From: a filamentous cyanobacterium CCT1
GTDB taxonomy: Bacteria; Cyanobacteriota; Cyanobacteriia; Phormidesmidales; Phormidesmidaceae
NCBI GenBank assembly: GCA_003017855.1
Contig: PYER01000005.1
Coordinates: 1-64,000 of the forward strand
DNA length: 64,000 nucleotides
Reading direction: 5' to 3'
The position numbers and the translations under genes are program-made. Below the pieces are notes generated by a model that was not told the origin of the DNA, made no database searches, and saw only the letters and a program-made list of their open reading frames with translations. Shown here piece by piece: positions 1-10,344 of the stretch. The stretch's first letter is position 1. Every line of letters starts with the position of its first letter.

Positions 1-2249
1 GGTGGGGGTGGGGCGCTAAACTCAGCCTCGTCCATACGCAGGCTTTCGGCTTCGGCCTTGAGCTGCTGAAAATAGTCGCTTTGGGTAATCGCCGCCACTT
101 CCTGCGTACGCTTGGCATGGTCGATTTCAATCTTGAGCTCGTCGACCTGGCGCTTGAGGGCTTCTTCGGCCAGCTTACGCTTGGTCACGTCTTCGACAAT
201 GCCTTCGTAGTAGAGCAGCTCGCCGTTGGCGCTGCGCACCGCCCGTACGCTTTCTGACAGCCACATGATGTCGCCATCTTTGCGGTAGGCCTGGTACTCG
301 TAGCCGGTAATTTCACCGTCGGTATCCACCTGCTGCATGAGCTGCTGGCGACGTTCGGCATCGACATAGATCTGGCTGCTGATTTCGGTGACAGCAGCCA
401 TCATAGCCTCAGGCGAGTCGTAGCCGTGGATGCGCGCCATAGCAGGGTTGACGCTGAGAAAGTGGCCCGAGGGCGTCGATTGAAAAATGCCCTCCAAGGC
501 GTTCTCAAAAATGCTGCGGTACTTTTCTTCAGTCAGCCGCAGCGTGTCTTCGGCCTGCTTGCGGGCGGTGATATCGGCCATGGCGCTGAGCACCGTCGCT
601 TCGCCGTTAAAGGTCAGGGGTTGAAATGAGGCCGTTACCCAAAAGGGGCTGCCGTCGGCCCGTTTGCCCTGCAGTTCGTAGTGCTGAATTGACTTGCCCT
701 CGGTCAGCGGGCCAAGCAGGGTCTGGTGCTCGGCCCGATCAAAGTAAAAGTCTTCAATGGAGCGATTCAGCAGGTCTTGGTCGGTGTGGCCAAAGGTTTT
801 GCTGGCCGTGGCGTTGGCGTAGAGAATCAGGCCATCGGACAGCCGCCAGATCAGCACGGGTACCGGGGTGGCCTCCGCAATGAGCTGCTGGGCCAGGTAC
901 ATCACCCGCTGGTCGCGGAGCCGCTTTTTCTCTAAGTAAGCGGTAATTTTGGCCCGCAGCAGTACCGGCTTAAAGGGCTTGGAGAGGTAGTCTTCGGCCC
1001 CCATTTCAATGCAGCGCACCACGTTATCGATCTCATCGAGGGACGAAATCATGATTACCGGAATCGCGTGCAGCGTGGGATGCTGCTTGAGGTGACCAAG
1101 CACCTCGTACCCGTTCATCTCGGGCATGATCAAGTCGAGCAAGATCAGGTCGTAGGGGCTGCTTTGCAGCATCTCTAATGCCTGACGGCCATTGGCGGCA
1201 ACCGCTACGGTGTAGCCCTGGTGCTCAAGCTGACGCGACAGCAAGTCGCGGTTGGTCTCGTTGTCATCGACGATGAGAATGTTGCCCCCCTGGAGGCTTA
1301 GCTCGTCGACGGGGCTGTGGTTGAGCGCTCGAATGGTGGTTTCGGCTTCTCGAAAGAGGCTGTATGCCGTGGTGCCATCGAGCCGTAGATCGGCGGTTTC
1401 CGTTCCGCTGGCGTCAATGAGCTGCAGCTGCTGCCGCGACAGGTTGACGATGTCGTTGACCATACCCAGCAGCCGTTGAGCGGCTTTGTGAATGCGATCG
1501 AGGTCGGGCACGATCTCGGGGGAGGCTTCTTCGAGCAGCATTTCGCAGTAGCCAATCACGGTGCTGAGAGGAGTCAGCATCTCAAGCCGAATGGTGGCCC
1601 CAAAGGAGTTGATGTCGCGAGGGGACTGGCTCACCTCCAGCTGAGTGGGGTCGAGAATGACATTGGCCAGCGCCAGGAGCTGGGTGCCGCAGGTGTAGAT
1701 TTTCTGCAGGTCGTCCCCCAGTGACGCGTCGGGCTGCCCCTTGATCTGGTCGAGCAGCATTTCGCTGTAGCCAATGATGGCGTTCATGGGGGTGCACAGC
1801 TCGTGGCGCAGATGGCCGAGCAACGCCCGCTGCACTCTGCTGTCCTGCGGCAGGCTGTTGGCGTCCTGGGGTTGGGGGGGCTGGGCGCTGGCCAGCAGGC
1901 GCTCAATTTTTTCGAGCAGCTGAGGTAGGTCAACGGGTTTGGTGTCGTACTCGTCGCAGCCCGCCTCGAAGGCCCGGTCGCGATCGCTCTGCATCGCGTG
2001 GGCAGTGAGGGCAATGATGGGAATGTGCTGGGTATGCGGGTTGGCCTTGATTTGTCGAGTCGCTTCGTAGCCGTCGATCACCGGCAGGTCAATGTCCATC
2101 AGCACCAGGTTGGGGCGTTCTGAGAGAGCTTTAGAAACACCATCGGCACCGTCGATCGCGATCGCCACCTCGTAGCCTTTGCGCAGCAGACGACGAGACA
2201 GCATATCTCGATTGACCTCGTTATCTTCGACTAGCAGCAGTTTGGGCAT
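1..2249 (-). CDS. Multidomain response regulator, REC-HisKA-like x2-REC-PAS-PAS (3' end beyond window)
   Basis: Minus-strand reading frame open from the ATG at 2249 to the window edge, so the C-terminus is missing. Visible order: REC (phosphoacceptor D52 in LVLMDIDLP, K104), a HisKA-like helix pair with H149 in RHELCTPMNAI, a second HisKA-like segment near 215-275 where the His position is Leu (RLEMLTPLS), a second REC (D372 in LILLDLIMP), then two PAS domains and a coiled coil. No HATPase_c N or G boxes are visible between the HisKA-like segments and REC2, so this is probably a phosphotransfer or scaffold protein, not a kinase. It starts 60 bp after the stop of the hybrid kinase at 2310 on the same strand, and is probably cotranscribed with it. 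A GGDEF, cyclase or kinase output beyond the edge cannot be excluded. Confidence 0.85.
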   Translation of the reverse strand, partial: MPKLLLVEDNEVNRDMLSRRLLRKGYEVAIAIDGADGVSKALSERPNLVLMDIDLPVIDGYEATRQIKANPHTQHIPIIALTAHAMQSDRDRAFEAGCDEYDTKPVDLPQLLEKIERLLASAQPPQPQDANSLPQDSRVQRALLGHLRHELCTPMNAIIGYSEMLLDQIKGQPDASLGDDLQKIYTCGTQLLALANVILDPTQLEVSQSPRDINSFGATIRLEMLTPLSTVIGYCEMLLEEASPEIVPDLDRIHKAAQRLLGMVNDIVNLSRQQLQLIDASGTETADLRLDGTTAYSLFREAETTIRALNHSPVDELSLQGGNILIVDDNETNRDLLSRQLEHQGYTVAVAANGRQALEMLQSSPYDLILLDLIMPEMNGYEVLGHLKQHPTLHAIPVIMISSLDEIDNVVRCIEMGAEDYLSKPFKPVLLRAKITAYLEKKRLRDQRVMYLAQQLIAEATPVPVLIWRLSDGLILYANATASKTFGHTDQDLLNRSIEDFYFDRAEHQTLLGPLTEGKSIQHYELQGKRADGSPFWVTASFQPLTFNGEATVLSAMADITARKQAEDTLRLTEEKYRSIFENALEGIFQSTPSGHFLSVNPAMARIHGYDSPEAMMAAVTEISSQIYVDAERRQQLMQQVDTDGEITGYEYQAYRKDGDIMWLSESVRAVRSANGELLYYEGIVEDVTKRKLAEEALKRQVDELKIEIDHAKRTQEVAAITQSDYFQQLKAEAESLRMDEAEFSAPPP

Positions 2250-8212: not shown

Positions 8213-8322
8213 AGTGACAATGCCGTGCAGGCCTAGGCTTTTATTGTAGCTCTCGTCCTTGACGCCAATTTCAGACGCGGTTAGGATGCTGTTGTTGTGC
8301 AATTCTGCGCTATCACCATTTA

Positions 8323-8406
8323 ATGTTGTCTTTGCAGCTATCCCTCGCCCCTCACTTCAGCCTGCTACTAGGGCTGGGGCTGCTGCTGCGCCTTGGGCGC
8401 AACTAA
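8323..8406 (+). CDS. Leucine-rich mini-ORF upstream of leuA, possible attenuator leader peptide
   Basis: An ATG at 8323 opens 27 codons ending in TAA at 8404-8406. Twelve of the 27 residues are Leu, with runs HFSLLLGLGLLLRLGRN. It lies 237 bp before leuA on the same strand. Leu-codon-rich leaders control leu genes by attenuation in enterobacteria and are known upstream of leuA in actinobacteria. Against it: no clear Shine-Dalgarno, and no hairpin followed by a T run before leuA. It could instead be a tiny membrane peptide or chance in Leu-codon-rich DNA. Confidence 0.3.
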   Translation: MLSLQLSLAPHFSLLLGLGLLLRLGRN

Positions 8407-8559
8407 TTCTTTAAAACAAAGGCGGAATGCCCTGAATAGTTCGACTCCTTTAGTTACAAGTTGCCCCTGGCTTTGACTATGGCTTAGGAGTTTGCTGCGT
8501 TATTTAAGCGCTGGTGCATCAAGCTCTGCCGCGATCGCACCCCCACCTTGTTTTGCCCT

Positions 8560-8584
8560 GTAGGGTGGGCACTGCCCACCATTC
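8560..8584 (+). repeat. 25-bp palindromic dispersed repeat, copy 1
   Basis: The core GGTGGGCACTGCCCACC (8564-8580) can fold into a tight hairpin. The whole element recurs inverted at 12888-12912 with two changed central bases. Both copies lie in intergenic DNA beside Uma2 genes. This type of GTAGGGTGGGC repeat is common between genes in filamentous cyanobacteria. Confidence 0.75.
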
Positions 8585-8643: not shown

Positions 8644-10344
8644 ATGTTGACCAACCCCGCTGAAAAGTATCGTCCCTTTGCGCCGATCGCACTGCCCGAC
8701 CGCACCTGGCCCAGCCAGGTGATTACCAAGCCCCCAATCTGGCTCAGCACCGACCTGCGCGACGGCAACCAGGCGCTGATCGAACCGATGTCGGTGGAGC
8801 AAAAGCTGCGCATGTTCGAGCTGCTGGTCGAAATCGGCTTTAAAGAAATTGAAGTGGCCTTTCCCTCTGCTTCAGAAACCGACTTTAACTTTGTGCGCCG
8901 ATTGATCGACGAGAATCGGGTGCCCGACGATGTGGAAATTCAGGTGCTGACCCAGGCGCGGGAAGACTTGATTCGCCGCACATTTGAGTCGTTGGCGGGG
9001 GCAAAGCGGGCGATCGTGCATGTCTACAACGCCACGGCCCCGGTGTTTCGGCGGGTGGTGTTTCGCCACGATCCAGCGGAGACGATCGCGCTGGCGGTCA
9101 ATGCCGCAACGCTGATTCGCAATCTGGCGGCGGAGCGGCCCGAAACCCAGTGGCGTTTTCAGTATTCGCCAGAGGTGTTTTCGCAGACTGAGCTGGAGTT
9201 TGCCCGCGATATCTGCAATGCGGTGCTGGAGGTGTGGCAGCCGACGCCCGATCGCAAAGCGATCATCAACCTGCCCGCCACGGTGGAAAGCGCTACCCCC
9301 AACGTATTTGCCGACCAGGTGGAGTGGATGCACCGCCACCTGGCCTACCGCGACAGCGTGGACTTGAGCGTGCACAACCACAACGACCGGGGCTGCGCAA
9401 TCGCCGCCGCCGAGCTGGGCCAGATGGCCGGGGCCGATCGCGTCGAGGGCTGCCTGTTTGGCAACGGCGAACGCACCGGCAATGTCGATATCGTCACCCT
9501 GGCGCTGAATCTCTACACCCAGGGCATTCACCCCGGCCTCGATTTTTCGCGCATTAATGAGGTGGCTCGCGTGGTCGAAGACTGCACCCAGCTACCCATT
9601 CATCCCCGCCATCCCTATGTGGGCGACCTGGTGTTTACGGCGTTTTCGGGCTCTCACCAGGATGCGATTCGCAAGGGCTTTGGCGCCCGCAACCCCGACA
9701 ACCTGTGGGATATGCCCTACCTGCCCCTCGACCCGGCTGATCTGGGTCGATCCTACGAGTCGGTGGTGCGCGTCAACAGCCAGTCGGGCAAGGGCGGCAT
9801 TGCCTTTTTGCTGGAGCGCGACTACAACCTCAGCCTGCCCCGCCGTTTGCAGATTGAGTTTAGCCAGGTGGTGCAGCGAACGATGGATGCCACGGGCAAG
9901 GAGATGACCGCGCCGATGCTGTGGGACTTGTTTGAGCAGGAGTATCTGCGGGCGAATACCCCCTTTAAGTATGTGACCCATCACTGGCGCGATGACGAAA
10001 GCCCAGCCACCATTTCCACAACCTTGGAATGTCGCGATCGCGTGCTGACCCGTGCAGGCCACGGCAACGGCCCCATCGATGCGTTTGTGGATGCGCTCGA
10101 TCTGCAGATTCGCGTGCACAGCTATGAGGAGCGGGCGATCGGCCACGGTAGCGATGCCGATGCGATCGCCCTGATCGAAATTGCCGCCGACTGGTTGGAG
10201 GGCACCATTCACGGCGTGGGCATTCACAGCAGCATTGTCACGGCTTCGCTGCTGGCGGTACTCAGCGCCGTCAATCGAGGGCTGGCCACGCTAACGCCGA
10301 CGCAGCGGCAGATGGTACTGCATGGGCCGCAACCCGTTCTTTAA
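8644..10344 (+). CDS. leuA: 2-isopropylmalate synthase (long LeuA form)
   Basis: 566 residues. It condenses acetyl-CoA with 2-oxoisovalerate, the first committed step to leucine. The TIM-barrel start has the metal and catalytic motif [16 protein letters not shown] near residue 35, with HNHNDRG and GNGERTGN further on. The C-terminal ~130 residues form the allosteric dimer domain where leucine feedback acts. The order and length match the long LeuA class typical of actinobacteria more than the ~520-residue E. coli type. An ATG start at 8644 fits the family N-terminus. The upstream 430 bp hold a Leu-rich mini-ORF, a palindromic repeat and a short GGTGAT/ATCACC hairpin (8591-8607), which may be regulatory. 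Confidence 0.95.

Follow-up and report, generated by a model that had tools for sequence, protein, structure and literature searches.

A candidate leucine-responsive leader-peptide attenuator upstream of long-form leuA in cyanobacteria

The leuL attenuator of the enterobacterial leuABCD operon consists of a Leu-rich leader whose consecutive Leu control codons govern premature termination of transcription. It uses the classical 1:2, 2:3 and 3:4 competing helices, and the operon encodes a short-form LeuA. A different layout has been described for actinobacterial ilvB (Seliverstov et al. 2005, PMC1262725), which is preceded by a short ORF whose runs of branched-chain amino acid codons overlap a candidate terminator hairpin with a U-run behind it; mutations in such codons were reported to be without effect for ilvB of S. 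coelicolor (PMC1262725). Actinobacterial leuA itself can be preceded by the LEU element, in which a pseudoknot fold close to the gene pairs Leu codons with the leuA Shine-Dalgarno box (PMC1262725); one example of the encoded peptide is MRFGLLLLSCRGEGL (PMC8079986). For cyanobacteria, a survey from 2016 noted that there were no reliable data on attenuation (PMC4833913), and no later report was found in the openly licensed literature. Here, we describe an element in front of a cyanobacterial leuA that is of a known kind of switch and apparently the first case reported from cyanobacteria.

The DNA analysed here (the window) is a 64,000-nt stretch from the filamentous cyanobacterium CCT1. It contains a leader ORF at 8323-8406 on the forward strand with the product MLSLQLSLAPHFSLLLGLGLLLRLGRN, whose stop codon at 8406 is separated by 237 nt from the ATG at 8644 of a leuA gene on the same strand. 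A preliminary description of this DNA had reported a mini-ORF of 27 codons with 12 Leu codons, on the leuA strand and 237 bp upstream of the gene, and translation and coordinates confirmed each of these values. Among the 653 ORFs of 20 to 60 amino acids in the window, no other reached 40% Leu, and no other had 7 or more Leu in 11 residues. This Leu content and the conservation described below rule out a chance ORF. The core sequence of the leader occurred only once in its own genome, and the gene upstream of the leader is a divergent Uma2-family gene. Since 12 of 27 codons are Leu codons, an ORF rich in codons for the product lies between a promoter and a biosynthetic gene, as expected for an attenuator.

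The gene at 8644-10344 (forward strand), which we propose to be the regulated gene, encodes a 2-isopropylmalate synthase with the allosteric LeuA_dimer domain. Its product matched NF002991 with 876 bits and TIGR00970 with 778 bits, both above the cut-offs, as well as the domains PF00682, PF22615 and PF08502, and it aligned with LeuA of Mycobacterium tuberculosis (1sr9) with 641 bits. The assignment to the long form, already made in the preliminary description, is thus borne out by the two profiles. The long-form leuA is an extra copy; the same genome also encodes an ordinary cyanobacterial LeuA (contig C224, 22348-23880) that is only 27% identical. There was no Leu-rich ORF in front of the ordinary gene, and the two copies are therefore probably regulated differently.

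A promoter is predicted at 8259-8287 of the forward strand, with TTGACG (8259-8264) and TAGGAT (8282-8287) separated by a 17-nt spacer. Transcription is predicted to start near 8294, which places the leader ATG about 29 nt downstream. This was the sole promoter-like site between 8100 and 8700, and the element was found at the same place in the alignment of the genus. Moreover, a promoter with at least 9 of 12 matches lay upstream of the hairpin called B below in 48 of 55 loci (3.7 expected from shuffled sequences), and in most of these 48 it had the form TTGAC(N)-17/18-TAnnAT and was located 81 to 125 nt before this hairpin. A conserved promoter just upstream of the leader ORF argues against a transcription start downstream of the leader. 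Right after the predicted start, at 8297-8310, there is a small hairpin (GTGCA-ATTC-TGCGC), and the sequence GTGCAA...TGCGC is largely conserved in the genus.

We compared the DNA upstream of leuA at 61 long-LeuA loci, 30 of them from a search of close relatives (including the locus in the window) and 31 further ones, most of which came from an even sample of 388 genomes across the class. The preliminary description had made its proposal depend on the presence of the mini-ORF in close relatives, and it is kept there. Leader and hairpin B were present in 57 of the 59 loci with enough upstream sequence, in about ten families and about 120 to 860 nt upstream of the long leuA. The other four of the 61 were two loci that end at a contig end near leuA, one of which has its missing part, with the leader, on another contig; L055, in which the Leu-rich ORF is kept without the hairpin; and L062, which has the most divergent LeuA (55%) and had no leader in its upstream DNA. 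The peptide usually ends with ...LLGLGLLLRLGRN/K directly before the stop; typical ends are LLGLGLLLRLGRN, ...LGRK, ...LARK, ...LRLAHT, ...LLLLRGRA and ...LLPVGH. In a pattern scan of named genomes, all 20 cyanobacterial matches were leader ORFs, with carriers that include Nodosilinea, Leptolyngbya, Microseira, Phormidium, Kastovskya, Shackletoniella and Tildeniella; leuA lay downstream in 18 of the 20, and in the other 2 the fetched stretch ended first. The four non-cyanobacterial matches were inside unrelated coding genes, three of which belong to one conserved protein family. Also, a covariance model of the leader element (R1) was run on the 388 genomes of the class, and matches of at least 35 bits were found only upstream of long leuA or, in one genome (G290), on a contig whose sequence breaks off at leuA. 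A stray match of 33 bits (G307) was within a membrane-protein gene and was rejected as a false positive in coding sequence. Because strong matches of the model were found only beside long leuA, we also rejected the idea of a general element of leucine or other genes.

Two hairpins lie within the leader ORF. Hairpin A (8358-8376, forward strand; CAGCC at 8358-8362 with GGCTG at 8372-8376) varies freely in sequence but retains its pairing. In an alignment of 62 distinct sequences that had been fitted to the structure, double-sided changes were seen at 5 of its 5 pairs, and its covariation score in this fitted alignment exceeded that of all 500 shuffles. Helix A was not recovered by the consensus fold of an unfitted MAFFT alignment. 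Furthermore, upon synonymous randomisation, the codons of the leader folded better than alternatives that preserve the peptide, with a mean z of -1.2 over 57 non-independent loci. Hairpin B (8387-8401, forward strand; TGCGCC-TTG-GGCGCA) is GC-rich and is the candidate terminator stem. Its 5' arm is within the Leu codon run and starts inside the last CTG of Leu20-22 (CTG CTG CTG, 8380-8388), the putative control codons, which thus abut and enter the hairpin; at least two of the four codons that abut B are Leu codons in 56 of 57 loci. The structure-fitted alignment of 62 distinct sequences contained no double-sided changes in helix B because the fit puts variant stems out of register, and the variants were therefore read directly from the sequences. 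The stem TGCGCC/GGCGCA is replaced by TGCCC/GGGCA in L025, L041, L045/L047 and L050/L057, loci that fall in at least four separate lineages of the LeuA tree. This two-sided change alters the peptide from LRLGR to LPxGH/Q or LPSGQ and keeps the stem.

Directly after the leader stop codon follows a U-rich tract (TTCTTT, 8407-8412, forward strand). A U-tract of at least 5 T in 7 nt and no more than 15 nt from B was found in 36 of 57 loci, compared to 6.7 expected from the same intergenic regions. In the other 21 loci there was no clear U-tract within 15 nt of B, and some of them have a T-run 20 to 40 nt further on. In the window, ACTAA separates B from TTCTTT, and this offset of five nucleotides is a poor spacing for an intrinsic terminator. 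At L037 the element has the form of a canonical terminator, CTGCTGCC-TTAG-GGCAGTAG-ATTTTTTT, whose loop contains the stop codon.

From the comparison of these sequences, the element probably belongs to the transcription attenuators, and we consider it likely that it is a leucine-responsive, ribosome-mediated transcription attenuator of the long-form leuA. Termination, translation, leucine dependence and the sign of regulation are what we infer for the following scheme. Transcription would begin just upstream of the leader ORF, and the last Leu codons of the nascent RNA (CUG CUG CUG) would contribute to the 5' arm of B, after which come the stop codon and the U-rich stretch. If leucyl-tRNA is plentiful, the ribosome would clear the Leu run and be released at UAA, B would form as RNA polymerase transcribes the U-rich stretch, and the transcript would end there. 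If leucyl-tRNA is scarce, the ribosome would stall on the Leu run and mask the 5' arm of B, no hairpin would form and the polymerase would read on into leuA. Leader-peptide attenuation, which the preliminary description knew from no cyanobacterial leuA, is now well supported comparatively by the ORF, its Leu codons, the hairpin, the promoter and the strict linkage to long leuA.

In computed folds, B formed with a probability of 0.97 in the free transcript without a ribosome. With a ribosome taken to cover about 12 nt downstream of the decoded codon (PMC4833913), the computed probability of B was 0 when the A site was on codons 20 to 22, and B was weakened by a ribosome on Leu18. A ribosome on codons 2 to 16 left B free in the computation, the exception being codon 8 in the shortest transcript tested. 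Stalls at the early Leu codons (2, 4, 6 and 8) would therefore leave B able to form, the wrong outcome for a starvation signal. A ribosome that waits at the stop codon also covers B, and thus the outcome would depend on the speed of release relative to the pausing of the polymerase. Since no Rho factor above the family cut-off was found in the genome (27 versus 509 bits), intrinsic termination is expected and Rho-dependent termination was rejected as an unlikely route; a match to Rho_N is uninformative because Synechococcus elongatus matches as well. The variable distance between leader and leuA (about 120 to 860 nt) disfavours a direct control of leuA translation by this leader.

This architecture can be compared with the known systems. 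It shares with enterobacterial leuL the Leu-rich leader peptide, the consecutive Leu codons and, as proposed here, premature termination, but the gene is a long-form leuA and there is no match to an Rfam leader family. With Rfam covariance models, neither the window nor a set of 12 leuA loci (searched at E <= 5) yielded a leader match, and a known Rfam element was therefore discarded. The nearest described layout is that of the ilvB leaders, in which the control codons likewise overlap the hairpin and no antiterminator is needed (PMC1262725), but those leaders precede ilvB, occur in another phylum and have mixed Ile, Val and Leu codons. As with the actinobacterial LEU element, a long-form leuA is preceded by an ORF that contains consecutive Leu codons; in contrast to the LEU element, the cyanobacterial leader is located about 120 to 860 nt upstream, has its own hairpins and U-tract and encodes another peptide. 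The LEU pseudoknot was not found at the locus in the window, where the leader is 237 nt from leuA and the helices are different.

The alignment of regions upstream of leuA, which the preliminary description had suggested, revealed conserved Leu codons and hairpins but no antiterminator common to all families, neither by eye nor in consensus folds of the sequences compared. In the window, a lineage-specific element, AACAAAGGCGGAATGCCCTGAATAG (8415-8439, forward strand), is near-invariant in the genus and in two sister genera, was not present in the more distant families compared and can pair with hairpins B and A (AAGGCG/CGCCTT and GCCCT/AGGGC). A possible third helix, ACTCCT (8444-8449) with AGGAGT (8486-8491), appeared on the forward strand in the consensus fold of 20 related sequences, in the genus of the window only. 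The leader could thus be a more elaborate leucine attenuator in which B serves as a pause helix or an antiterminator and the actual terminator forms further downstream, either at the T-run 20 to 40 nt after B in many relatives or at the genus element AAAGGCG...GCCCTGAATAG. T-runs of at least five cluster 0 to 10 and 20 to 40 nt after B and are absent at 40 to 70 nt, in several loci (for example L031 and L034) the stretch that precedes the second T-run is able to pair with B or the leader, and CGCCTT and AGGGC are possible pairing partners of the genus element. However, these alternative pairings differ from lineage to lineage, the window has no T-run after the genus element, and several pairings would regulate a biosynthetic gene in the wrong direction, and we regard such a design as rather unlikely.

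The pattern of substitutions bears on whether the ORF is read by ribosomes. The start and stop codons do not vary within the genus, and the variable codons among codons 14 to 27 showed only synonymous variation, codon 15 excepted. The pN/pS of codons 14 to 19 was 0.17; codons 20 to 27 had no nonsynonymous change at all and are near-invariant in nucleotides, whereas codons 2 to 13 are nearly free of constraint (0.83). The early Leu codons are kept as well. CTA, which makes up 10% of the Leu codons in the window, is retained at codon 16 in 16 of 16 and at codon 6 in 15 of 16 genus sequences. Across families, gaps within the ORF alignment are 3, 6 or 9 nt. From the frame, the conservation of start and stop and the synonymous changes, we infer that the leader is translated. 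The near-invariant nucleotides of codons 20 to 27 and the covarying helices would also fit a protein-binding or stabilising RNA structure that contains a Leu-rich ORF by accident. This is quite improbable, since start and stop are kept, gaps come in multiples of a codon, codons 14 to 27 change almost only synonymously and the Leu codons are retained where the end of the peptide changes. A functional small protein or a nascent-chain arrest peptide instead of a codon-stalling leader could account for the end LLLRLGR(N/K), conserved in most lineages, and for the early Leu codons. But in several lineages the end has become LPxGH/Q, LPSGQ, LRGRA or LRLAHT with the stem kept, the position of the stop ranges from the hairpin loop to well beyond it, and strong matches to the model occur only beside long leuA, all of which makes such a product highly improbable.

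A second Leu-bearing leader with the motif LRLxxGCQ....WQPDSP (leader 2, as distinct from leader 1 described so far) was observed directly before leuA. A model search detected leader 2 in 29 of the 388 cyanobacterial genomes, near a long leuA wherever the locus was read, and did not detect it in the genus of the window. It is located at 1343-1507 (forward strand) in L022, and equivalents are present in L020, L021, L024, L033, L034, L040, L041, L043, L045, L048, L050, L053-L057, L060 and L061; of the 22 matches read in a motif scan, two were leader 1 itself. In the loci read, leader 2 often has a GGAG ribosome site, and in most of them its stop codon overlaps the start of leuA (ATGCTAA). It contains an 11-bp hairpin that was paired in 95.5% of cells.

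In the tree of LeuA, the 36 cyanobacterial rows formed one clade (100/99) that branched with Burkholderia, Acinetobacter and Cupriavidus, and the actinobacterial proteins formed a separate clade; the outgroups were a small sample of plasmid and chromid records. The closest non-cyanobacterial LeuA borne on a plasmid was that of Burkholderia (63%), and the best actinobacterial one had 57%. The model of leader 1 matched the region upstream of leuA in Acinetobacter (E = 5.8e-4). There, in A. baumannii (L123, 478-562), an ORF encoding MKTNYLFAQPTQARHHLELLMLRLARV, with a hairpin and TAAATTTTTG, ends with LMLRLARV and is accompanied by CTGCGCCTCGCGCGCGTATAAATTTTTG, like leader 1, which suggests an attenuator for long leuA on both sides of the phylum boundary. 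The model of leader 2 matched regions upstream of leuA in Ochrobactrum (E = 4.7e-5; L136, 497-563) and Cupriavidus metallidurans (E = 0.0044; L135, 454-527), in both cases with Leu codons followed by a GC-rich hairpin. These proteobacterial matches are few and their scores modest. The preliminary description had raised the idea that leuA and its leader were acquired jointly from an actinobacterium, and long LeuA is indeed common there and preceded by Leu leaders (PMC1262725, PMC8079986), but the tree and the identities place cyanobacterial LeuA with proteobacterial LeuA, the leader peptides and architecture differ from the LEU element and similar elements lie upstream of proteobacterial leuA, so that an actinobacterial origin is not supported and is very improbable. 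The tree and the proteobacterial leader matches suggest that gene and leader(s) may share a proteobacterium-like source, and leuA may have brought the attenuator(s) along from a proteobacterial relative.

On balance, we lean towards a wider reading, in which this would be the first family of leader-peptide attenuators in cyanobacteria, would have entered the phylum with a proteobacterial-type leuA and in many relatives would act in two stages, leader 1 on transcription and leader 2 on the translation of leuA. If leader 1 is a transcription attenuator, transcription and translation would be functionally coupled on the leuA mRNA in cyanobacteria, and the ribosome would control RNA polymerase in a phylum in which coupling is little studied and in a genome with no Rho above the family cut-off. 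An attenuator would have moved between phyla together with the gene that it controls, and the leucine control of an extra long-form leuA beside the ordinary copy would be explained. A leader kept over about ten families offers a concrete and easily tested case.

The 5' UTR of leuA also contains a palindrome at 8560-8580, GTAGGGTGGGCACTGCCCACC. It is an interspersed repeat and was rejected as the terminator; the exact pattern occurred in 59 copies in the genome, compared to none for the reversed control.
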